Shown here in pieces: positions 193 to 10,784 of a stretch of DNA of 64,000 bases. The position numbers and the translations under genes were made by a program. Under the pieces are notes generated by a model. That model saw only the letters and a list, made by a program, of their open reading frames with translations. It made no database searches and had not been told where the DNA came from. Source of the stretch: Acerihabitans arboris (lineage in GTDB: Bacteria; Pseudomonadota; Gammaproteobacteria; Enterobacterales; Enterobacteriaceae). Each line of letters starts with the position of its first letter. Position 1 is the first letter of the stretch. The stretch lies in contig NZ_WUBS01000017.1 in assembly GCF_010131535.1 (NCBI RefSeq), positions 1 to 64,000 on the forward strand, given 5' to 3'.

Positions 193-2256
193 CTACCGCT
201 TTGTTGGTATTGTTAAATAAATATTTTCACCATCCAGCGTAATCACCCCCTCTTTTTCCAGCTTGAGCAGCCAGCGAGAAAACTTCTTATCGGCGCTGAT
301 ACCCTTGGGGCGCAGTGCCTGACGAAGCTGCGAGCGGGTGCAGTCTCCGAGGTCGAGGAGCGCCTGCCAGACGGCGATATGATTGCCCGTCAGATGCGAC
401 ACTCCTGCCAACTCCGGGTAAACAGCGGTCGGGTCCTGTGCCGCCCTGGACTGGTCATGCAACACCAGGGAATCCACAGGTTCACCGTCCTCATCGACAT
501 ACACCGTGACCGGGCTCAGGTCATACGCCGCCGGCTCGGGTGGCTCCGCGTCCTTCATCTTAGTGCAGCTCAATACCAGGGCATGCCCTTCGCCTTCACG
601 CCGGACGTTAAACTCCGCGTCCAGCGCCGCCTGAAATGCGCTGGAGCCCCGTGCGCCCCGGTCCTGGTCCTTGCCGGAGTGATGGACAATCAGCACCGAG
701 GCCTGCGTGGCGGTGCGAATGGCGTCACAGCCCTGAATGAACGCGCCCATGTCGCGTGCGGCGTTTTCGTCCGAGCCGCCAAAGCAGCGCGCCAGGGTAT
801 CAAGGATAATCAGCCGCACCGGCATGGTGGTCAGACGGTTCACGTCCGCCGCCGCCTGAATGACCTGATTGACGCTTTCCGGGCTGGCGGGGAATACGGC
901 ACAGTCCACCCGGAACAGGCCGTCCACCGGGCTATTGCCGTTGAGCGTCTGTTCCCAGGCCCGTATACGGCGCGGGACGCCGATACCGCCTTCACCGGCC
1001 ACGTAAATCACCGCGCCCTGATTCACCCGCTGCTGCGCCCAGGGCTTGCCGGTAGCAATATGGCAGGCCCAGGAGACCGCCAGGAAAGACTTAAACGAGC
1101 CGCCCGGCCCGTAAATACTGCTGAGCGAGTTGCCGGGGATATGGCCCTTAATCAGGTAGTTCTGCGGGGTATCATATCCCTCCGAGCCCCGGCGCAGCGG
1201 CAGGGAGGTGGTGAGTTCAGGGGAATGACGGTCAACGGACGTGATACCGGGTTTCATGGTGGCGCTCTCCTGGTGAAAATCAGAATGGGAAATGAAAAGC
1301 TGGCGGTAAAAATCGCGGTGGGCCTGTTCGGGGCCGTACAGGCGCAGGGCATCATCGTGGTCGGTTGCCTCACCGAGCGGCAGCACGACCACCCCGTTTA
1401 CGGCGCGGGCGGCGCGTACTGCCTGCAGTTTTCCGGGGTTGTCTGGATGAGTTCGGTCGTTATCGGCGGCCAGAATAAGGCGTGCCTGCGGATAGGCCTC
1501 GCGCAGGGCACCGGCCACATTCAGCAGGTTATTGGCTGACAGGGCGGCGCAGATGCGCATGCCGGTCATAGCCCGGACCGCCAGCGCGGTGGCGTAACCT
1601 TCGGTAATGGCGATGTCTTCAGTGGCTGGAGCGGTAAAACCGGCTGGAGGGCAGACAGTGGCATCCGGCGGCAGCGCCACAAAAGCGCCTTTCAGGTGCG
1701 AGCTCGGGAGCAGATGTTTGGTGCCCAGCGGACTGACCAACTGGGCGCCGGTCAATTGTCCTGTTGTATCCTGAAGGGGTAACACCAGCGAGCCAGGGGG
1801 AAAGATGTCTCCGGCCACGGTGATGGTCTGTCCCGCCGGCAACACCGGTCCGGCCAGGTCATAGCCCTTCGCCTTCAGGTAAGGGGACTCCCCCGTGACA
1901 CAGCAGGCCAGCAGGGAACTGACCCGGGCGGTGATATTGACGGTCGGCCGGGCTTTTTCCCTGGCTGGCGGGGTTGACGTTGCGCCCTCCAGAGAGGCCA
2001 CTCTTCTGGCCGCTTCAGCAAGTGAACAACGGTGGACGCGGGCCACCAGGTCCAGTCCGTCGCCGGCCCCGCAGCGATTGCAGTACCAAGTGCCCCGCCC
2101 TTCCCGGTCATCCATACGAAAGCGGTCCAGCCCGCCACAGACCGGACAGGGACCGTGCCGATGATGTGCCGGCACCGGTATCGACAGCGAGGACAGAATG
2201 GCGGGCCAGCGGTGCCGGGCCTGGCGGGTGATATCGGAAACAAAGGTGCTCGTCAC
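193..2256 (-). CDS. Primase-helicase of a mobile element (zinc ribbon, Toprim-like, RepA-type ATPase)
   Basis: A 687-residue replication protein in three parts. The N-terminus has a primase-type zinc ribbon with Cys37, Cys40, Cys59 and Cys62. A Toprim-like centre follows, with an ITEGYATALAV strand and an AADNDR acidic motif. The C-terminal half is a RepA-like hexameric ATPase with Walker A GPGGSFKS, Walker B LIILDTLAR and the motif VLIVHHSGKDQDRGARGSS. Such proteins prime and unwind phage satellites, integrative elements or plasmids. The start is GTG at 2256-2254, overlapping the recombinase stop as GTGA, so the two are translationally coupled. No plasmid or phage structural genes are visible in the window. 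Confidence 0.85.
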   Translation of the reverse strand: MTSTFVSDITRQARHRWPAILSSLSIPVPAHHRHGPCPVCGGLDRFRMDDREGRGTWYCNRCGAGDGLDLVARVHRCSLAEAARRVASLEGATSTPPAREKARPTVNITARVSSLLACCVTGESPYLKAKGYDLAGPVLPAGQTITVAGDIFPPGSLVLPLQDTTGQLTGAQLVSPLGTKHLLPSSHLKGAFVALPPDATVCPPAGFTAPATEDIAITEGYATALAVRAMTGMRICAALSANNLLNVAGALREAYPQARLILAADNDRTHPDNPGKLQAVRAARAVNGVVVLPLGEATDHDDALRLYGPEQAHRDFYRQLFISHSDFHQESATMKPGITSVDRHSPELTTSLPLRRGSEGYDTPQNYLIKGHIPGNSLSSIYGPGGSFKSFLAVSWACHIATGKPWAQQRVNQGAVIYVAGEGGIGVPRRIRAWEQTLNGNSPVDGLFRVDCAVFPASPESVNQVIQAAADVNRLTTMPVRLIILDTLARCFGGSDENAARDMGAFIQGCDAIRTATQASVLIVHHSGKDQDRGARGSSAFQAALDAEFNVRREGEGHALVLSCTKMKDAEPPEPAAYDLSPVTVYVDEDGEPVDSLVLHDQSRAAQDPTAVYPELAGVSHLTGNHIAVWQALLDLGDCTRSQLRQALRPKGISADKKFSRWLLKLEKEGVITLDGENIYLTIPTKR

Positions 2257-3134
2257 GGGCTCACCCCCTGGGCATACACCCGGCGGATATAACGCCCGCG
2301 CCCGTCACCATGTCCAAGGTCGGTGGACGTCAGGGCACAGGCTTCCCGCAGACTGAATCCCTTCGACCTATAATGGCGAAGCGCATCCTGCGCCCAGGCA
2401 TAACGCAGGCTGTGGGGGGAATACACCCCGGTCAGTCCGGCGCGAGTGGTCTGCGAGCGCCAGTAGTTCATGGCGGTTTTCAGGTCGGGTTTGGGGATTA
2501 ACCGTCCATGACGTGTGGCGGAAATATCCAGCGCCCGATTTACGGCGTGTGTCATCGCTTCACGGTCCAGTACCAGGGTCTGGCGCGGACGTCCGCCCTT
2601 GGTGCCGAAGACCACTGCCAGACGTTCATCGCCCCGCGCCAGCGCCGCGGCCCAGGTCGACAGCGACTGTGAACACTGCACGGCCTCCTGCGAGCGCAGC
2701 CCCATTAGCCGGGTCAGCTGTAGCGTGACGGCCAGTCCGGCATCCTTTTGCGTGCAGGTATCGAGGGCGGCCTGATAACGCGTCTGGCTGATGGCGACAC
2801 GGGTGCCGGCCCGGCTGGCGCCCTGGAGCCCCAAAGCCTGATTGCCGAGGCGGTCGGCGTCGGCCAGCTTGTCCCGCCCGGCTTCGCGCAGCATCACCCG
2901 CACGGCGGCCATCTCATTGTGCAGGGTGCGCAGACTGATGCCCTGCGCCTGGCGGTCAGCGATATAGGATTCAATATGTTTGGCTTTCAAGTGACTAACC
3001 GATTTCACCTGAATGTTAAGGTCCAGCAGATGGCGGCTGAGACGCTCGGCCATATGCAAACGGTCATGGACCGTCTTGTGACTGCCGCCGGCCTGGCGGG
3101 CCAGCTTTTGCAGTTCACGGCATAATGCTGTCAT
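2253..3134 (-). CDS. Tyrosine site-specific recombinase (Phage_integr_N / Integrase_1 type)
   Basis: A 293-residue tyrosine recombinase. Residues 1-110 look like the SAM-like core-binding domain. The catalytic domain shows the first Arg in LMGLRSQEA, the HSLRY box (H-x-x-R) and a C-terminal tyrosine near residue 282 in GRGRYIRRVY. It resembles recombinases that travel with integrative elements beside a primase gene. It is first in a two-gene unit with the primase-helicase. The upstream side is dyad-rich and non-coding, a plausible place for its promoter or for attachment or origin sequences. Confidence 0.85.
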   Translation of the reverse strand: MTALCRELQKLARQAGGSHKTVHDRLHMAERLSRHLLDLNIQVKSVSHLKAKHIESYIADRQAQGISLRTLHNEMAAVRVMLREAGRDKLADADRLGNQALGLQGASRAGTRVAISQTRYQAALDTCTQKDAGLAVTLQLTRLMGLRSQEAVQCSQSLSTWAAALARGDERLAVVFGTKGGRPRQTLVLDREAMTHAVNRALDISATRHGRLIPKPDLKTAMNYWRSQTTRAGLTGVYSPHSLRYAWAQDALRHYRSKGFSLREACALTSTDLGHGDGRGRYIRRVYAQGVSP

Positions 3135-3137
3135 GGT

Positions 3138-3476
3138 GATACCCCTGTCTCCGGCGCGCGATAGTCCGCGACACGGGGGTATCCCGTGCCGTGCTGAACA
3201 ATACCTGTGCGCCGGAGTGGCAGTGGTTGAGGTGTGGCGGGGAGTCGGTTATGCACTCGGTGCAACCGCCTGCGTCAGCAGGAAATCCCCTCAGGCGGTA
3301 AAGCCTGCCTCAGGTATTGATTCAGTCCTCCTTTGGTGAATGGATGAGAAGAATTGACGCAGAAAAGCGTGCGTCAGATGACAGGGATGCTCAGTCAGGC
3401 AGCATAATTTCAGCGTTGGTGCGGTGGTCGGGTGCGGCGTCACTTTCACCCGTTAGCACGGGAAAAGTGACGCCGC
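3138..3476. repeat. Dyad-rich non-coding region upstream of the recombinase
   Basis: This gap contains several perfect inverted repeats: GATACCCC (3138-3145) with GGGGTATC (3176-3183); CTCCGGCGC (3149-3157) with GCGCCGGAG (3209-3217); CACGGG (3172-3177) with CCCGTG (3183-3188); TGACGCA (3355-3361) with TGCGTCA (3370-3376); and a strong hairpin with a 13-bp stem GCGGCGTCACTTT (3434-3446) pairing with 3464-3476. Interleaved dyads beside a recombinase and a primase suggest an origin, transfer origin, attachment site or control region. Which one cannot be told here. Confidence 0.55.
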
Positions 3477-3479
3477 TGC

Positions 3480-3959
3480 CTCATGGAAACATCAATTGAG
3501 GCAAAAAAGGCCACGGCCACGACGAATGCGCCAGGGTGGAACGAGGAATAACACACACCAGCCAGGGAAAGGGCATGGCATTGGGGATACATCAGATAAA
3601 TGACCGCCGGCAAAAGCCAGGCATCAATGAGAGATGAATATCAGCACCGGATTGGCGCAGAGGGAGAAATTAGCCACCACCGCCGAAGCGATACCCGCGC
3701 TGCCGGTGACGAAGCGGGCTAGGGATTGACCACTCAGATTATCCCTGAGCGTTGCCTTGCAGGACGTGGCAACCTGGGGTGTTGTCCTCAGACAACAGGT
3801 ACAAAATAATCCTACACCGGCAATTATCCGCTGGCAAGGCTGACGCGCTTCGCTTGTCGTCTCCGGTCTGCCCATGCAAATAAGTTGTATGGGCAGACCG
3901 GAGATTGAAATGATCTCATAAGATGTCGCCCTACACATAATGTTATATGTCTTGAACAC
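3480..3959 (-). pseudogene. Decayed membrane-protein remnant (frameshifted)
   Basis: One minus frame ends with a hydrophobic stretch (SLARFVTGSAGIASAVVAN) and then stops at 3624. A second minus frame picks up hydrophobic segments such as AWLLPAVIYLMYP and GAFVVAVAFFASI directly after it. Together they look like two or three transmembrane helices of a carrier split by a frameshift. The family cannot be named and no start is convincing. It could also be chance hydrophobicity. Confidence 0.3.
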
Positions 3960-4021
3960 ATGGGGCCAGACTATTAACTGATGGAATTCCCGTCTAAAAC
4001 CGGGGGTACTTCTTTATAGGA

Positions 4022-4501
4022 TTACCCTGCTTTGGATATGCCTTTTATCGGATAGGTGACTAGTGGTTTTATTTCCTTCAGGACAAACATACTTTGCATC
4101 GCTTTTATACCAGGCAGGCGGCGAACGACCGACATGGCAAAATCAGCATAGGAGTCCAGGTCATTTGCGACGACCTGCAATAAAAAATCAGCATCTCCAC
4201 CTATGCTATAACAGGCTACTACGTCTTCGAGAGCCGTAACCTCTTCTTCAAATTTTTTAGCTTCAGCCTCACTGTGACTATCGATGGCAACGCGCACAAA
4301 AACCATGACACCAAGCCCGATTTTTTTCCTGTCCAGTACCGCCCTGTACCCCTGGATGACTTCATCTTCCTCAAGCTTCCGCACTTTGCGCCAGCATGGG
4401 GAAGCAGAAAGACCGATCTTATCTGCCAATACTTGGTTGGTAATGCGAGCGTCATCCTGTAGAAGCCGCAAAATTTTCATTTCTGTCTTATCCAGTGCCA
4501 T
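4022..4501 (-). CDS. Lrp/AsnC-family transcriptional regulator
   Basis: A 159-residue protein of full Lrp length. Residues 1-60 form the AsnC-type winged helix-turn-helix (LDKTEMKILRLLQDDARI, then IGLSASPCWRKVRKLEEDEVI). Residues 70-150 form the RAM effector-binding domain. These regulators usually sense an amino acid or related metabolite and often control a divergent gene. This one diverges from the prephenate-decarboxylase cluster starting at 4665 and is AT-rich like it. It is therefore the likely local regulator, and the ligand may be the pathway product. Confidence 0.88.
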   Translation of the reverse strand: MALDKTEMKILRLLQDDARITNQVLADKIGLSASPCWRKVRKLEEDEVIQGYRAVLDRKKIGLGVMVFVRVAIDSHSEAEAKKFEEEVTALEDVVACYSIGGDADFLLQVVANDLDSYADFAMSVVRRLPGIKAMQSMFVLKEIKPLVTYPIKGISKAG

Positions 4502-4551
4502 AAAAGCAAATCTCTTTCTGAAATAGCGTTCATTTGGGTAAAACTATCCTA

Positions 4552-4579
4552 TTGACATCAGAAATGAAAGGCAGATAGG
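4552..4579 (+). promoter_or_regulatory. Candidate sigma-70 promoter for the biosynthetic cluster
   Basis: A perfect TTGACA at 4552-4557 is followed after 16 bp by GATAGG (4574-4579), a poor -10 match. It lies in the 163-bp gap between the divergent Lrp gene and the first cluster gene. The weak -10 could fit activator-dependent expression. Confidence 0.35.
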
Positions 4580-4664
4580 TAACAAATTTCCGCCAACCGC
4601 AGGCATAATAATTACTCAGTCTAATAATTCAAAGCCTAAGAATGGCATGGTATTTGAGGTGAAA

Positions 4665-5027
4665 ATGCTGCTACACATTGTCTTGTTCACTTTTAAAAGT
4701 CCCTGGAACTGGTCATCGCTTGAAGCTATCGATGCAGAACGGGCTACCCGGAGACACCATCATTACATCAGAGAGATAAAAGGGTGGATTTCTGGCCGAA
4801 ACGTTACCCACCGCAGCATTGCTGCCGATTTTGCTGTCGTTGGCCTATTTGAAAACAAAGAAGATATGAATGCTTACCTTGTCCATCCCGATCATCAGGC
4901 CGGGGTAGACAAATGGAAGATCATTGCGAACTGGTCAATTGTAGATCTTGAACTGAATAGTGACTTTACGCTTAATACGGGCTTATTTGAATCGCTTAGT
5001 TCTATCTGCCACTTTCCCCAGGAATAA
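4665..5027 (+). CDS. Dabb-family (stress-responsive alpha/beta-barrel) protein
   Basis: A 120-residue protein opening with MLLHIVLFTFK, the hallmark first strand of Dabb ferredoxin-like dimeric barrels. Later HRSIAADFAVVGLFENKED and the HPDHQ segment are also typical. The start at 4665 is preferred over an ATG six codons upstream because GAGGTG lies just before it. Dabb proteins include small cyclases and isomerase-like enzymes of natural-product pathways as well as proteins of unknown role, so the substrate is unknown. It is the first gene of the eight-gene run, 11 bp before the DUF2000 gene. The C-terminal 25 residues are not typical of the family. Confidence 0.7.
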   Translation: MLLHIVLFTFKSPWNWSSLEAIDAERATRRHHHYIREIKGWISGRNVTHRSIAADFAVVGLFENKEDMNAYLVHPDHQAGVDKWKIIANWSIVDLELNSDFTLNTGLFESLSSICHFPQE

Positions 5028-5038
5028 AAGGACTAAAT

Positions 5039-5461
5039 ATGAAATTTGATGCCAGTATTCATCGCTGCACCATCATCATTCACAGCGACCTTCCCACCGG
5101 CTTGGCAATGAATGCCGCCAGTGTGATCGGTATAAGTTTCGGGAAAACTATCGAAAATCTCGTCGGCCCGGATATGCAGAGCCTTGACGGTCTGAATTAT
5201 CCGGGTGTGATTCACTCTCCTCTGCCAGTACTCCTCTCTTCTGGAGATTATTTACAGGAGCTGCAGCGTACAGCTAAAGAAGACGCAGATATTTATGCAA
5301 TGCCGTTCAGTGCGCTTGCACAATCCTGTAAAACATATGATGAATATGGGGAACGCATTTCTTCCGTCAGCAGCACAAACATAGAATTGGTGGCTATAGG
5401 CTTGATTGGCCCCAAAAAGAAAATAACCGGACTTACGGGTAACCTTCCCCTTTACAAATAA
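5039..5461 (+). CDS. DUF2000-family protein
   Basis: A 140-residue protein that looks like the DUF2000 family: the CTIIIHSDLPTGLAMNAASV opening, a central MPFSALAQSCKTYDEY stretch and a late IELVAIGLIGPKKKI strand. No biochemical function is known to me for this family. It lies between the Dabb gene and the adenylate-forming enzyme gene on the same strand, which suggests a small accessory or tailoring role. No signal peptide or membrane segment is seen. Confidence 0.65.
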   Translation: MKFDASIHRCTIIIHSDLPTGLAMNAASVIGISFGKTIENLVGPDMQSLDGLNYPGVIHSPLPVLLSSGDYLQELQRTAKEDADIYAMPFSALAQSCKTYDEYGERISSVSSTNIELVAIGLIGPKKKITGLTGNLPLYK

Positions 5462-5568
5462 TGAAGTAAGCACAACTTATTCAAGTAATCTCAGAATAGT
5501 TTAAATCCTGAGCCGAACTATGCCATTAAAGTGATGGTGTGATTTTTTTAACACGAGAGGTTTTTATT

Positions 5569-6981
5569 ATGTATGCTGTTTTCAAAGACGACCTCCTCCT
5601 GAAAGCCAGGAATGTGTATCAGCAACATAGGGATTTCGAAGCAGGAAAAATTAGCCGGAGTCAGCTGATTAAACATCAAAACGACAGTTTTAAAGATGTG
5701 CTGAATTATGTGTCTTCAAATTCGCAATTTTATAAAAATCATCTTTCTGGAATAACAAATCATGACATCGAAAACATTACCCTTAATGAAATAAACTCAC
5801 TCCCGTTTACCACAAAGGATGACTTAAGAAAATATGGGGCATCGCTGGCGTCAGCCCCTCTTCGTGATAGCTGGATCTATTATGAAACGACTGGAACGAC
5901 GGGATCTCCGACGCCATGTCCACGAAATGAGATCGACTCAATACATAATAACACACCTCTGATCATTCATTACCGTAACATATTTAATCAACATGGTACC
6001 GGACATATAGTAGGCGTAATGGGGCCAAGCGAACTGCATTCAACTGGTGATACTTTTGAAGATGTTTTACGCAGCTTAGGCCACAGCGTTGTAAAAATGT
6101 GGCCGCGTTCGCCCGTCGTTGGCATGAAGCGTGTGATGGCACTGATTGATGAACTGAAAATCACGGCTTTAGTCTGCACTCCTGCTGTCGCCATTTCGCT
6201 GGCCCGCTTTATGAGGCAATGCGGTCGTTCTCCCGCCGAGAGCAGCATCCGTTTGATACTCACCGTCGGTGAGCTCACCACTCCCGCCCTATTAAGAAAC
6301 ATTGGCGACGTTTGGAACGCCCAGATATATAACTGCATGTATGCTTCACAGGAATCCTCCATTCTCGCGGTCTGCAACCATGATGGCTATCTGTATACCG
6401 TTCCGCTGAACAACTACTATGAAATCATCGAGCCTGTCAGTGGTAAACCTTTTGATAGCGCCAGCGGACAGGTCACAGGTGAACTGGTCATTACCCATCT
6501 TTATAAGGGACAAAAGCCCCTGATACGCTATAGAACCGGTGACATGGTGCGTTCAACGTTAATGCCGAATGGATGTCAGAGGCTTGTTCCGATAGGGCGT
6601 GTGCGCGATGTCCTCAATCTCAACGGGACCCAATACTGTGCGTGGGACCTTGAGGCTGCATTACTCGACAGGTTGACCGGCTGCCTCGATTTCGCCATCC
6701 AGATTGAACGCCATCAAAGAACGGACACGCTCAATATCACTGTGGAATTATTTGATTCCACTACAGACTCCGCTGCCCTGCTCTCTGAAGTCAAAAAACA
6801 TATGGAAGGCAAATTAAATGGCGTGAGAGTCAACCTCGCAACAGGCGAGACCACAGCCATCACCGGAACCTCAGCGATGGTGAGCTGGAAAGCCGCACGG
6901 TTGCATGATCGCAGACCTGAAGGGGATAACACCGACCGGGATGCGGCGCTGGACTTAATCACTGGTGGGTTTAAATCATGA
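5569..6981 (+). CDS. PaaK-like adenylate-forming enzyme (AMP-dependent ligase)
   Basis: A 470-residue member of the ANL superfamily nearest to phenylacetate-CoA ligase. Residues 106-115 read ETTGTTGSPT, the AMP-binding P-loop-like motif. RYRTGD near residue 320 is the A8-type motif, and GRVRDVLNLNG leads into the C-terminal lid. The start at 5569 follows GAGAGG; the more upstream ATG has no ribosome site. It would activate a carboxylate as an acyl-adenylate, then transfer to CoA or another nucleophile. No carrier protein or NRPS gene is nearby, so a free CoA thioester or amide product is likely. It overlaps the aminotransferase gene as ATGA. Confidence 0.8.
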   Translation: MYAVFKDDLLLKARNVYQQHRDFEAGKISRSQLIKHQNDSFKDVLNYVSSNSQFYKNHLSGITNHDIENITLNEINSLPFTTKDDLRKYGASLASAPLRDSWIYYETTGTTGSPTPCPRNEIDSIHNNTPLIIHYRNIFNQHGTGHIVGVMGPSELHSTGDTFEDVLRSLGHSVVKMWPRSPVVGMKRVMALIDELKITALVCTPAVAISLARFMRQCGRSPAESSIRLILTVGELTTPALLRNIGDVWNAQIYNCMYASQESSILAVCNHDGYLYTVPLNNYYEIIEPVSGKPFDSASGQVTGELVITHLYKGQKPLIRYRTGDMVRSTLMPNGCQRLVPIGRVRDVLNLNGTQYCAWDLEAALLDRLTGCLDFAIQIERHQRTDTLNITVELFDSTTDSAALLSEVKKHMEGKLNGVRVNLATGETTAITGTSAMVSWKAARLHDRRPEGDNTDRDAALDLITGGFKS

Positions 6982-7949
6982 ACATCCCGGTTCGCCACAC
7001 ATCATCAATAGAAACTAAAACTGCACATCATCCCTTGGTTTATCTCAATGGTGAGATTGTCGAAACTCAAAACGCCACGCTGCCGGTGACTACTCAAGCA
7101 TTTAATTATGGGACGGGAGTATTTGAAGGAATACGTGGATATATCAGCCATGAGGGAGAAAACGTAAATATTTTCCGGCTGGATGAGCACATAAGACGGC
7201 TACTTAATTCTGCATCATTGCTCCTGATTGACGATATCCCCACCGCTGATGAAATACAGAAATCAATTCTCAACTTATTGCGTCTCAATAATGCCCGGAG
7301 CGATTGCTACATTCGGCCTCTGGCATTTAAGCAGCATTTACTGCCAGGCAGCGGCTTTGGTGTAAAGCTTTCAGGTGTAAGCAGCGGTTTATCTATAAAC
7401 ACCTTAAATATGCGTTCTTATGTAAAACAGGATGGAATACGCTGCACTTTTTCCAGTTGGCGGAGGATTGCAGACAACGCCATTCCTGTGCGTGCAAAAA
7501 TAACAGGAAGTTATGTTAACTCTGCGCTGGCGATAGAGTCTGCCCGGCTGAGCGGTTTTGACGATGCATTTATGTTAAACACGCATGGTAATCTGTCAGA
7601 AGCGACAACATCAAACATTTTCATTGTAAAAGAGAACAAAATAATTACTCCTCCGGTTAATGCTCATATTCTAGAAGGCATTACACGTGCTACCGTTATA
7701 ATCCTGGCAAAGGAACGGTTGGGATTAGAAGTAGAAGAGAGAGATATCTTGCCTTCAGAAGTACTTATGGCGGATGAATGTTTTCTCTCCGGAACAGGTG
7801 TGGAAATCTCCCCGGTTATACAAATCGATCACCACCATCTTAAAAGCATCAATGATGAAAGTACTACTTTGTCGATAAGAAATATTTATCAACAGGTCGT
7901 GCGTGGCGAAATAGATAATTTCAGTTCCTGGTTAACGCCCGTTTATTAA
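6978..7949 (+). CDS. Class IV (IlvE-like) PLP aminotransferase
   Basis: A 323-residue fold-type IV aminotransferase. It has the QAFNYGTGVFEGIRGY opening motif, the PLP lysine Lys174 in VRAKITGSY, and GNLSEATTSNIF, which holds the cofactor. The overall length and motifs match branched-chain aminotransferases. The gene is in the middle of a prephenate-decarboxylase cluster, and a housekeeping role in isoleucine/valine synthesis is not supported by any ilv neighbours. It more likely aminates the 2-oxo acid made by the BacA-like enzyme. This role is inferred from context. Confidence 0.88.
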   Translation: MNIPVRHTSSIETKTAHHPLVYLNGEIVETQNATLPVTTQAFNYGTGVFEGIRGYISHEGENVNIFRLDEHIRRLLNSASLLLIDDIPTADEIQKSILNLLRLNNARSDCYIRPLAFKQHLLPGSGFGVKLSGVSSGLSINTLNMRSYVKQDGIRCTFSSWRRIADNAIPVRAKITGSYVNSALAIESARLSGFDDAFMLNTHGNLSEATTSNIFIVKENKIITPPVNAHILEGITRATVIILAKERLGLEVEERDILPSEVLMADECFLSGTGVEISPVIQIDHHHLKSINDESTTLSIRNIYQQVVRGEIDNFSSWLTPVY

Positions 7950-7971
7950 TTCGTCCTTATAGAGAGAATGA

Positions 7972-8559
7972 ATGATGAAAACTTATTTCATGGATATGGG
8001 GTTAGAACGAGCATTAAATTTACCTATTTACACGCTTGGTCCGTCAGGTACAAGCAGCGAATATGCATCGCGGTTTTTCAGTAAATGGATGGTTGATACT
8101 TACAACCGTAGCATTCACGCTTTGGTCCTTAATGACACCTATGAATTGGCGCGTGAAAATCTCAATAAGGAGAAAGGATTATTAGTTGTTGCCAATGCCT
8201 ATCCCGCAATTAATGATTTTTATATGGATACACGGCTGTCGCTCCTGGCGACATTCGTTTTTGATACTCCCCTGTACGGTCTTGCTGTCAAAGGTCCATT
8301 ACCCTATCGTCCACTGTGTATAGCTTCACACCCTGCCCCCATTCCATTAATCAGTGAATTGCTTCCCGAGGGGCTTTTTATCGCACGAATTGTCGAGATG
8401 GACTCTACCAGCGCTGCTGCCATAGCAGTGGCAAATGGTGAAGTCGATATGGCGCTAACGACGGAAATCGCCGTTGGGTTACACAACCTGAAATTCGTAT
8501 CCAGCACCCGACCGATCCATATGCTCTGGTCTGTATTCGGCTCTCAGACTCAACACTAA
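7972..8559 (+). CDS. BacA-like prephenate decarboxylase
   Basis: A 195-residue protein that matches what I recall of Bacillus BacA (about 204 residues) along its length. Shared blocks are LGPSGTSSEYAS (residues 22-33), an INDFYMDTRLSLL segment, FDTPLYGLAV, a SHPAPIPLI segment, DSTSAAA and MLWSVFG at the end. BacA-family enzymes resemble the catalytic domain of prephenate dehydratase but decarboxylate prephenate without aromatising it, giving dihydro-hydroxyphenylpyruvate. That compound is the entry to anticapsin and to dihydrophenylalanine-type amino acids. There is no ACT domain, so feedback by phenylalanine is unlikely. ATG at 7972 or 7975 both fit the AGAGAG ribosome site. Confidence 0.85.
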   Translation: MMKTYFMDMGLERALNLPIYTLGPSGTSSEYASRFFSKWMVDTYNRSIHALVLNDTYELARENLNKEKGLLVVANAYPAINDFYMDTRLSLLATFVFDTPLYGLAVKGPLPYRPLCIASHPAPIPLISELLPEGLFIARIVEMDSTSAAAIAVANGEVDMALTTEIAVGLHNLKFVSSTRPIHMLWSVFGSQTQH

Positions 8560-8575
8560 TAAGGTAAGAATAAAA

Positions 8576-9127
8576 ATGGACATATTGAAACCGCATACTC
8601 CGCAAAGCGCTCCCTCAGCCAGCCGGGCGCTATTGCAGAGTTCTGTTGACAGTTTTGGCTGGGTTCCCAGGCAGAGTGCTTACATGGCCGAATCTCCAGC
8701 GCTTCTTTCATCCTATCAGTTTGCTCACGATACTTTTTCGCAATGTTCATTGCAGGAAGAGGAACGAGCCGTGGTGTGGATCACCACCGGCATTATTAAT
8801 GGATGCAGCTATACCGTTCAGGCTCATAAATGGATAGCAATGCACAAGGGCGTACCCGCTCAAATTCTGGATCAGTTGATATATGACCCACGTGATTTAC
8901 CGGAACGACTATCTGCGCTTTATCACTTTACGCGTGCGGTAATACTGGCGCATGGACAGATCCCTGCGGAAAAGGTGGCCGCATTCCTTGACGCCGGTTT
9001 TACCCGTGAAAATATGCTGGACGTGATCCTCGGCGTCTCACAGAAAACCATGTCCACACTGCTTAATAGCATTGCCGGAACTGAGGTGGAACCTCAGTTT
9101 ATGGACGTCGGCACCGAAATTGAATGA
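8576..9127 (+). CDS. AhpD/carboxymuconolactone-decarboxylase-fold protein lacking the second cysteine
   Basis: A 183-residue all-helical protein of the AhpD-like fold. The usual C-x-x-C-x-x-x-H active site is present as GCSYTVQAHK, with Cys77 and His84 kept but the second cysteine replaced by Thr80. A thiol-disulfide peroxidase role is therefore unlikely. In biosynthetic loci this fold sometimes works as an isomerase, lyase or decarboxylase-like enzyme, so it may process the dihydro-oxo acid or its amino acid. It is 16 bp after the BacA-like gene and 15 bp before the dehydrogenase gene, fitting one transcript. Confidence 0.75.
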   Translation: MDILKPHTPQSAPSASRALLQSSVDSFGWVPRQSAYMAESPALLSSYQFAHDTFSQCSLQEEERAVVWITTGIINGCSYTVQAHKWIAMHKGVPAQILDQLIYDPRDLPERLSALYHFTRAVILAHGQIPAEKVAAFLDAGFTRENMLDVILGVSQKTMSTLLNSIAGTEVEPQFMDVGTEIE

Positions 9128-9142
9128 AAGGTCCTCTCCGCT

Positions 9143-10090
9143 ATGCGCTATTTTGATCGACAGAGTGTCGAGAATACCTTGCCACCCGAGCTGTGCCTGC
9201 AACTGAGCAGAGAAGCTTTTATGCTTTTCAGTCAGGGTAAAATCATGCAATCCCCACGCGACATCATCGCGGCTGAAGACGGCTGCATTATGGGAACCAT
9301 GCCGGCATGTATCCGGGAAGGAGACTGGAAAGGCTTTGGCTTAAAAACGGTGAAAGTTGATTTCAGCCATGCCGATGGACGAGCTTCGCATGAGGGGGTA
9401 ATACTGCTGTATGACGCCCTGCCGGACGGAGGAATGGCGGTTATTGACGCCGGTGCCATCACGGAATTAAGAACGGCGGCAGCATCCGCATGGGCAACTG
9501 AACAACTTTCTTCTCCTTACTCCTCCCGGCTTGCCATACTGGGCAATGGCGTACAGGCCAGAAAGCATGTGCAGATGATGCGATTCATCAGACCAATAGA
9601 AAGCATTACAATCTGGGGTAGGGACAGCGCCCATACCGGCCTGTTTGCCGCCTGGTGCCGCGAAAAAACGGGCTTGCGTATTGAAGTAAAACAAACACCT
9701 GAAGAGGCGGTCAGTGGCACAGACATTATTTGTACTGTGACTGCGTCAAAATCCCCATTGCTCCGGCTAAAGGATCTTAAACCGCATTGCCATGTCAATG
9801 CCGTGGGCGCATCTGCACCGGGTTTTCAAGAGCTTGATGCAGATGTTTATGCCGGGGTTGAGCTGTATGTCGACTCACGCGATGCCGCCTGGCAAGCCTC
9901 GTCTTGCCTTCAGGAGGCCAGGAAAAATCGGCTAATCAGTGCGCAATATCCTATCAGCGAAATCGGTGAGCTGGGCGATGCCTTATCATCCCGCCGGACA
10001 TCACGCTCAAAACCCACGGTGTTCAAATCGGTAGGAATTGCTGCGCAAGATTTGGTTTTTGCCCGAGCTGTAGTCAGGATGTGCCCATAA
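9143..10090 (+). CDS. Ornithine cyclodeaminase / mu-crystallin family NAD(P)-dependent enzyme
   Basis: A 315-residue protein with the OCD fold: substrate domain at both ends, Rossmann motif ILGNGVQARKH near residue 135, then VGASAPGFQELD and KSVGIAAQDL, all family landmarks. Members include true ornithine cyclodeaminases, ketimine reductases and opine-type dehydrogenases such as SbnB. With an aminotransferase and a prephenate decarboxylase beside it, imine reduction or oxidative deamination of the product amino acid is more likely than ornithine metabolism. The substrate is not visible in the sequence. Confidence 0.82.
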   Translation: MRYFDRQSVENTLPPELCLQLSREAFMLFSQGKIMQSPRDIIAAEDGCIMGTMPACIREGDWKGFGLKTVKVDFSHADGRASHEGVILLYDALPDGGMAVIDAGAITELRTAAASAWATEQLSSPYSSRLAILGNGVQARKHVQMMRFIRPIESITIWGRDSAHTGLFAAWCREKTGLRIEVKQTPEEAVSGTDIICTVTASKSPLLRLKDLKPHCHVNAVGASAPGFQELDADVYAGVELYVDSRDAAWQASSCLQEARKNRLISAQYPISEIGELGDALSSRRTSRSKPTVFKSVGIAAQDLVFARAVVRMCP

Positions 10091-10157
10091 TTAATTTTTC
10101 AATTTTCATCTGTTGATGGACAGGGACATCAATGAACTTACGAAACAGGAACACAAC

Positions 10158-10784
10158 ATGTTAGGAATCACGCAGATTTTAACTTATGTCGCGGCTCTCG
10201 GGCTGGCCGCCGCCATTCCGGGACCGGGAATGACGGCCCTGGTTGCCCGCAGCGTCAGCGGCGGGGCTATTTCGGGCTTTACCATGCTGGGCGGTCTTAT
10301 TATTGGCGACCTTGTTTACCTGTCTTTTGCTGTATTCGGACTGGCGGTGATTGCGCACAATTACAGCTCTGTTTTTATATTGATAAACTGGGCAGCAGCC
10401 CTGTATTTATGCTGGCTCGCCTGGCAGTTCCTTAAATACCAGCCGCAGGCTATCAGTATCGGAAAACCGGCGTCGCGGCACGAGCTTGCATCTGCCTGGC
10501 TGTCAGGTTTTACCATCACCCTGGGTAATCCCAAAACGGTGGCATTTTACCTTGCCATCCTTCCTCTGGTTATCTCCCTTGATAATGTGTCGCTGATGAC
10601 GTGGGGGATGATGCTGGTGCCGTTGACAATCCTCGTTCTTTTAAGCGTAGGCGCTGTATTTATTCTGGCCGCGCTGAAAATCCGCCATTTTCTTACCAGC
10701 GCAAAAGCGCAAAGGAGACTGTTCCGTTCGGCAGGAGTAATCATGCTGTTGGCCGCGGCGGGAATGGTCATGAAGACTTTCTGA
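10158..10784 (+). CDS. LysE/RhtB-family amino-acid exporter
   Basis: A 208-residue inner-membrane protein with about six hydrophobic segments. The first carries AAIPGPGMTALVARSVSGG, the signature of LysE/RhtB exporters, and the centre carries the conserved GNPKTVAFYLAILP. The start at 10158 has AGGA seven bases before it; the ORF can be extended to 10113 but without a ribosome site. As last gene of the run it probably exports the amino-acid product or protects the cell from it. An Lrp-type regulator plus a LysE exporter is a familiar pairing for amino-acid efflux. Confidence 0.85.
   Translation: MLGITQILTYVAALGLAAAIPGPGMTALVARSVSGGAISGFTMLGGLIIGDLVYLSFAVFGLAVIAHNYSSVFILINWAAALYLCWLAWQFLKYQPQAISIGKPASRHELASAWLSGFTITLGNPKTVAFYLAILPLVISLDNVSLMTWGMMLVPLTILVLLSVGAVFILAALKIRHFLTSAKAQRRLFRSAGVIMLLAAAGMVMKTF

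Follow-up and report, generated by a model that had tools for sequence, protein, structure and literature searches.

What does the gene cluster near the beginning of the Acerihabitans arboris contig NZ_WUBS01000017.1 make, and is its pathway new? We examined the stretch from position 1 to 64,000 (hereafter the window), whose first base is also the first base of the contig. An Lrp-type regulator gene on the minus strand is followed by eight divergent plus-strand genes ending at 10784 (open reading frame coordinates), one of which encodes a BacA-family protein. Reading frames and families were as claimed in the initial annotation, which called the pathway undescribed and found that it matched none of those it knew. 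That judgment did not hold: the gene-neighborhood comparison of BacA homologs that it had proposed, once run, found the gene order shared with genomes resembling Photorhabdus, around their sole BacA match, and with nine of ten named loci. We consider it probable that the window holds a pathway of the type known from Photorhabdus for 2,5-dihydrophenylalanine (H2Phe), gained by horizontal transfer, and the best reading is a cluster of the H2Phe kind, not a previously unseen pathway.

The best BacA-family matches after the window itself came from four genomes of a single genus (5.1-5.4 Mb), with one match of 225-228 bits in each. Three of these genomes carry the Dabb, DUF2000, ligase, aminotransferase, BacA, CMD, OCD, and LysE genes in window order at 41-62% identity, and the fourth carries five of the eight in order before its contig ends. 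The aminotransferase gene lies directly upstream of the BacA gene in the window and is its neighbor in all four genomes as well. LuxC-family matches exceed 500 bits in each of the four, and in one (G619) genes for LuxD, LuxA, LuxB, and LuxE come after the one for LuxC, each above its NCBIfam cut-off. We take the luminous terrestrial genus of this family to be Photorhabdus and, from the lux genes together with the family, infer that this is the genus carrying the eight genes.

Crawford et al. reportedly showed in 2011 that plu3042-3044 are required for H2Phe in Photorhabdus luminescens; we take Plu3042 to be a transaminase and Plu3043 a non-aromatizing prephenate decarboxylase. Because each Photorhabdus-like genome has one BacA-family match, its locus should be the Plu3043 locus. 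The window aminotransferase and BacA-like protein are presumably the counterparts of Plu3042 and Plu3043, and the counterpart of Plu3044 is probably the CMD gene (57-60% identical), judging by gene order and the plu numbering. Photorhabdus is known for H2Phe (PMC5897657, which cites Crawford et al.). There, a BacA-family enzyme decarboxylates prephenate without aromatizing it, and an aminotransferase acts next.

The BacA-like protein scores 17.6 bits against the Pfam PDT model, below the cut-off of 25.2. Its predicted structure (mean predicted local distance difference test score 88.6) has as best PDB match the prephenate dehydratase 6vh5 (E 2.3e-8), closely followed by 3mwb and by 3luy, whose title is putative chorismate mutase; the fold also occurs in many periplasmic-binding and LysR effector domains, which likewise match the model. 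As modeled, the protein has the prephenate dehydratase fold. We aligned 21 family rows with the window genome's own PheA and found the motifs LGP, [ST]HP, and ST kept in 20, 19, and 17 rows, respectively, while the column of the threonine in the dehydratase motif TRF holds methionine in all 21. The product of the gene at 7972 is thus a putative BacA-family non-aromatizing prephenate decarboxylase and SalX counterpart. The fold and the non-conserved threonine support the earlier proposal of a prephenate-derived amino-acid pathway with decarboxylation, transamination, activation or reduction, and export.

The label PaaK-like, in contrast, proved misleading. The ligase scores 84.8 bits against TIGR02155 (PaaK), for which the cut-off is 646.3, and is 24-26% identical (69-76 bits) to the true PaaK of relatives, as against 242-276 bits in Blast to ligases encoded beside anthranilate-synthase-like genes, including that of the C-1027 cluster. 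In a tree, the window type pairs with the ligase of a Streptomyces cassette (93/96); the two join the benzoxazolinate type, separated from PaaK (100/100). With rows from the luminous genus added, the window type and Streptomyces stand together at 100/99, and the ligase of the window shares a clade with the Photorhabdus-like one (95/91); the tree tool gave a long-branch warning for both trees. What we take to be the ANL motifs (TTGTTG, YRTGD, and SWKAAR) are conserved. By sequence, the protein thus groups with benzoxazolinate-type acyl-AMP ligases. In benzoxazolinate synthesis, XsbC closes an amide within one molecule, probably through an acyl-AMP (PMC10098953). Since the window set shows no obvious partner that uses thioesters, intramolecular closure by the window ligase is a fair guess. 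Separately, a conjugative plasmid of Pseudomonas syringae pv. actinidiae (L026 4370-13014) carries an anthranilate-synthase-like pair, a benzoxazolinate-type ligase, an iron redox enzyme, a flavodoxin, and an EamA protein, and similar ligases are among the matches listed on other plasmids of the P. syringae group.

We then asked how widely the cluster occurs. A scan of species genomes with the BacA-like protein used exact peptide patterns, which find close relatives only. Nine of the ten BacA loci retrieved hold all nine genes, with order and orientation kept and identities of 43-90%, and the arrangement is therefore not due to chance. They come from Pantoea sp. A4, Vibrio ruber, Vibrio sp. 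MEBiC08052, Photobacterium halotolerans, Pseudomonas weihenstephanensis, P. brassicacearum, two Vreelandella, and Thiopseudomonas. The tenth, from Amycolatopsis, matches in DUF2000 and BacA only. On plasmids, 35 records hold a BacA homolog, and the full nine-gene set is found on a plasmid of Pantoea sp. MT58 and on P. aeruginosa pNY8709-IMP; the latter strain came from human blood (locus L013). Within the window's own family, 19 of 392 genomes have BacA profile matches (1e-5), but ten of these score only 27-32 bits and probably represent common dehydratase domains; nine of the ten lie within open frames 389-432 codons long. A first sample of 39 other relatives gave no BacA match at E 0.001, and neither did a class sample of 368 other genomes at E 1e-12. 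A search of phage records found no BacA protein, and a DNA search of E. coli genomes did not find the ligase.

The nine cluster genes have a GC content of 42-53%, compared with about 60-68% in the flanks. The AT-richness reported earlier therefore stands for the genes, but the low-GC stretch is not confined to them and runs on to about 13.5 kb. Low GC, patchy spread, and presence on plasmids are in keeping with a mobile pathway, and horizontal acquisition is the best reading for the window. To the left of the cluster, near the contig start, phage-type primase/helicase and integrase genes lie at 193-3134 and are possibly the vehicle of the island. In Thiopseudomonas the BacA and CMD frames continue without a stop (L008 10001-11250), reflecting either a fusion or a lost stop. 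In P. vagans (NZ_CP022517.1 97345-98278) the cluster aminotransferase aligns in two pieces where no gene is annotated, perhaps a broken gene.

Taken together, the genes suggest that the cluster most likely turns a phenylalanine precursor into a non-aromatic phenylalanine look-alike that would be exported as a weapon. The BacA-family enzyme would decarboxylate prephenate without aromatizing it, and the aminotransferase would next make the dihydro-amino acid. In the Photorhabdus pathway, this dihydro-amino acid is 2,5-dihydrotyrosine. Dabb, perhaps with the one-cysteine CMD protein, would set the position of the ring double bonds. The ligase would then activate the carboxylate and probably close it onto the allylic 4-hydroxyl, turning this into a leaving group, and the OCD-type reductase would add a hydride and release the free acid. 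The net result would be dihydrotyrosine minus an oxygen, that is H2Phe or a close non-aromatic phenylalanine analog, which LysE would export, Lrp would sense, and DUF2000 would guard against in the producer. The ligase and the OCD protein are proposed for the final step because going from dihydrotyrosine to H2Phe needs activation and two electrons, the chemistry of their families.

Several points weigh against this reading. The name Photorhabdus is itself only inferred; LuxC-family matches alone are not diagnostic, as 9 of 14 control genomes also have them; and the assignment of plu3042-3044 to window-type genes is provisional. Lrp has no match in the three complete Photorhabdus-like loci. The register of the TRF alignment could be off by four columns, and the alternative gives Thr in 11 of the 21 rows, with none in the rows of Vibrio ruber, Photobacterium, and two Photorhabdus-like genomes; the threonine is conserved in neither register, which fits decarboxylation without dehydration. 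The aminotransferase exceeds the NCBIfam cut-offs for branched-chain transaminases (PRK06606, 309 vs 279 bits; TIGR01122, 265 vs 246), and its family label alone would suggest another substrate. The roles of the ligase, Dabb, and CMD are drawn from context only, and the product and activities of the cluster are predictions from its genes. The compound made may instead be tetrahydro (cyclohexenylalanine) or retain the hydroxyl, and we know of no published enzyme pair for the proposed deoxygenation.

The first of these products is the alternative that survives best. The cluster would then make L-3-cyclohex-2'-enylalanine, the free tetrahydro form of a salinosporamide building block, instead of H2Phe, which we hold to be unlikely but worth keeping in mind. 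Salinosporamide uses cyclohexenylalanine, and the BacA homolog SalX is needed for it (PMC2866466). A plasmid of Streptomyces sp. WZ-12 carries, in order, a polyketide synthase (PKS), a nonribosomal peptide synthetase (NRPS), a 596-aa ketosynthase, P450, MbtH, Dabb, ligase, aminotransferase, BacA, OCD, DUF1330, and PhzF; the ketosynthase matches SalC over its full length with 934.7 bits, compared with 518.7 for the next entry. The same five-gene cassette from Dabb to OCD lies in a different NRPS/PKS cluster in strain NBC_00464. The core order (Dabb, ligase, AT4 aminotransferase, BacA, OCD) is the same in loci L014 and L022; in the window, DUF2000 separates Dabb from the ligase, and CMD separates BacA from OCD. 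For OCD, three Streptomyces cassettes come directly after six Gram-negative cluster records (among the best 14 of 1017 records; by bits, two of the three lead), and for the aminotransferase they occupy rows 8, 9, and 11 of 248. The core thus tends to travel together. However, these cassettes have DUF1330 and PhzF and lack CMD and DUF2000, whereas the Photorhabdus-like set, from a genus known for H2Phe, has all eight genes.

A bacilysin- or anticapsin-like product, a tetrahydrotyrosine or epoxyketone amino acid with DUF2000 or Dabb in place of BacB and the ligase in place of BacD to make a dipeptide, seems to us distinctly improbable. A Priestia aryabhattai plasmid, possibly with a variant of the bacilysin type, does have BacA and DUF2000 beside an ATP-grasp protein, a major facilitator superfamily (MFS) transporter, and an aminotransferase (L018 6044-7010 with 2097-5862), and no cupin is annotated over the 13.6 kb viewed; in Streptomyces, Dabb occurs within a cluster of BacA, cupin, and short-chain dehydrogenase/reductase (SDR) genes. 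Yet no SDR oxidoreductase was found among the cluster proteins, and neither a cupin nor an ATP-grasp family among the ten proteins scanned (Pfam and NCBIfam, E 0.01), as the initial annotation had reported for BacB and BacD. This type of ligase also occurs in clusters with an NRPS to make peptide bonds, and the gene order agrees with the Photorhabdus-like set instead. A pathway of the H2Phe type would be expected to lack BacB, BacD, and stilbene genes.

BacA-family genes occur in further settings. A RraA-like protein, a PDT-like (BacA-family) protein, a cupin, and a DAHP synthase are encoded in one order in Proteus (L019 5268-8457) and three relatives (L116, L117, and L118). In Pseudoalteromonas (L021 7076-15097) BacA stands beside DUF6421 in a locus with three ATP-grasps, an LLM oxidoreductase, and a DAHP synthase/chorismate mutase of its own. 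The pair of BacA and DUF6421 recurs, with LysE, on a Serpentinimonas plasmid of 16 kb (L024 3502-6410).

It is highly improbable that the genes form an everyday catabolic or stress operon, with a branched-chain transaminase, a ligase of the PaaK type, a peroxidase, and an OCD protein joined by a misannotated PDT-like protein. Taken singly, the genes do carry labels of common families, and the aminotransferase exceeds the branched-chain cut-offs, but the nine genes are conserved over four families of Gammaproteobacteria with the core in Actinomycetota, the ligase is far from PaaK, the core adjoins an antibiotic assembly line, and the distribution is patchy and partly plasmid-borne. Known Pantoea products were also considered as the identity of the cluster, and PNP-1, PNP-2, PNP-4, and PNP-5 were rejected on gene content or product (PNP-1, 4-formylaminooxyvinylglycine; PNP-2, six genes with a ferredoxin reductase; PNP-4, 14 genes; PNP-5, holomycin-like; PMC11350110, PMC7744662). 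PNP-3, described as eight genes in 8.5 kb in these sources, is a possible if not favored candidate. Among the papers listed by our searches of the open literature, none dealt with this gene set.

The features of the cluster are collected in Table 1. Homologs suggest later starts for three of its genes (Dabb, ATG 4665; PaaK-like, ATG 5569; LysE, ATG 10158).

Table 1. Cluster features in the window, with coordinates, strand, and the basis of each assignment.
Feature	Position	Strand	Basis
Lrp/AsnC-family regulator	4022..4501	-	PF13412, PF01037
Divergent control region with candidate operator inside	4502..4664	.	11 intergenic regions aligned
Dabb (ferredoxin-like barrel) protein	4665..5027	+	PF07876
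DUF2000, peptidyl-tRNA-hydrolase-2 fold, candidate self-protection protein	5039..5461	+	
Acyl-AMP ligase, benzoxazolinate-ligase type (annotated PaaK-like)	5569..6981	+	AMP-binding; tree, identities, ANL motifs
Class IV (IlvE-like) aminotransferase	6978..7949	+	PF01063
BacA-family non-aromatizing prephenate decarboxylase (predicted)	7972..8559	+	Predicted fold; PDT below Pfam cut-off
CMD/AhpD-fold protein, one cysteine	8576..9127	+	PF02627; TIGR01926 below cut-off
OCD/mu-crystallin-family NAD(P)H reductase	9143..10090	+	PF02423, 182 bits (OCD_Mu_crystall)
LysE-family amino-acid exporter (predicted)	10158..10784	+	PF01810, 81.6 bits

Context bears on the roles of the smaller proteins. The window type of Dabb was found in 20 of 72,556 plasmid records (E 1e-3), and 18 of the 20 also hold a BacA homolog; the other two are partial matches on Klebsiella plasmids, and the one viewed has neither an annotated gene at that place nor BacA. 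Conversely, 17 of the 35 BacA plasmid records lack this Dabb type. A minimal Streptomyces set consists of exporter, aminotransferase, Dabb, and BacA. Because of the plasmid co-occurrence and this minimal set, we link Dabb with what BacA makes; it is probably an isomerase, with a chaperone as another candidate role. The CMD protein has CxYT instead of CxxC in all 11 rows aligned, and two Photorhabdus-like rows read the same. The best solved relatives of the OCD protein are thiomorpholine-carboxylate dehydrogenase, mu-crystallin, and alanine dehydrogenase, and it is a candidate for the deoxygenating hydride transfer. The LysE exporter and the Lrp regulator fit an amino-acid product, which Lrp probably senses. 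Lrp is 74-92% identical across the 11 other Lrp-bearing clusters compared. Among 11 aligned intergenic regions, that of the window included, positions 4544-4583 form a candidate operator with CTATC...GATAG arms and a TATAGGTAAC-like block, present in two variants among the relatives.

DUF2000 has the peptidyl-tRNA-hydrolase-2 (PTH2) fold. It reads GLAxNAASV (by eye) where the PTH2 protein L057 has RGKEIAQGSHA, the alignment being gapped in this stretch; we take GKxxxQxxH to be the PTH2 catalytic signature. A divergent Lrp-DUF2000 pair occurs without other cluster genes in the stretch read at six loci (L030, L031, L034, L062, L063, and L064); in L030 an IS3 element separates the two genes, and in L062 two reading frames are needed to align the end of DUF2000, which may mean a damaged copy. 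L062 also has a weak 23-residue Dabb match between lrp and DUF2000 (E 0.01), on which we do not rely. Since DUF2000 sits beside Lrp even where biosynthetic genes are lacking, we rejected a role as BacA-specific isomerase and favor an immunity (self-protection) factor. An AraC-type gene lies near DUF2000 in all 30 of the best-scoring 30 of 99 DUF2000 places, within about 300 bases in 29, and 23 of these 30 align to the window or Amycolatopsis DUF2000 at 22-34%. Pairing with a regulator may thus be common in the family, and a role in sensing or detoxification is also compatible with the AraC pairing. LysE adjoins DUF2000 in 3 of 12 other class-sample loci. The family name had no match in 5.39 million open papers.

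DUF2000 appears in other company as well. The window genome holds a second DUF2000 (L042), also AraC-paired. A Vibrio halioticoli plasmid (L020 5686-11826) encodes PhzF, BacA, DUF2000, an FGE-sulfatase-type protein, a molybdopterin oxidoreductase, LysE, and AraC, and a related MFS-BacA-DUF2000 set is found in genome G756 (L115 4383-8416).

What is new here is the proposal of a benzoxazolinate-type ligase and an OCD protein for the final deoxygenation, together with the PTH2 fold of DUF2000 and the suggestion of immunity, which gives this family a first testable role. To our knowledge, the steps after the dihydro-amino acid are unsolved; nominating the ligase and reductase for them makes these steps testable with two purified proteins. 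The shared core also joins the Photorhabdus antibiotic H2Phe with the cyclohexenylalanine unit of salinosporamide-type proteasome inhibitors, pathways that, as far as we know, have stood separately. Moreover, a pathway of the H2Phe type appears scattered over Gammaproteobacteria and plasmids, one of them in a clinical P. aeruginosa isolate. In its boldest form the idea would be a new kind of traceless deoxygenation, in which the ligase draws the amino acid's own carboxylate onto the ring hydroxyl and the OCD-type enzyme displaces it by hydride; free-living bacteria would thereby obtain H2Phe and salinosporamide makers cyclohexenylalanine, with DUF2000 as a new self-immunity class, a peptidyl-tRNA-hydrolase-like protein that clears analog-charged tRNA and is kept with its Lrp sensor by non-producers; as a whole, we regard this combination as speculative and rather doubtful.

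Compared with known systems, the window shares its eight genes and their order with the Photorhabdus-like loci that stand here for the H2Phe locus of Photorhabdus luminescens, each such genome having one BacA-family match; the two differ in replicon and host, and in the divergent Lrp of the window type, which has no match in the three complete loci. With the cyclohexenylalanine genes of salinosporamide and cinnabaramide (SalX and neighbors), the window shares the five-gene core, as seen through the SalC-homolog locus of the Streptomyces plasmid and not the sal cluster itself; unlike that cassette, the window cluster has no assembly line, DUF1330, or PhzF among its genes and adds DUF2000, CMD, LysE, and Lrp. 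Bacilysin synthesis (bacABCDEFG) has a BacA-family protein, an aminotransferase, and an exporter in common with the window. In bacilysin synthesis, BacB is a bicupin isomerase and BacD an ATP-grasp ligase; these and the SDR were not found in the window cluster, whose exporter is of the LysE and not the MFS type. Finally, the window ligase belongs to the same subfamily as the benzoxazolinate acyl-AMP ligase, compared through the C-1027 counterpart of XsbC (36-37% identity, with TPCPR and SWKxAR shared). The 2-amino-2-deoxyisochorismate (ADIC) synthase and dehydrogenase partner of the benzoxazolinate system have no counterpart in the window cluster, and the substrate of the window ligase is expected to derive from prephenate rather than ADIC.

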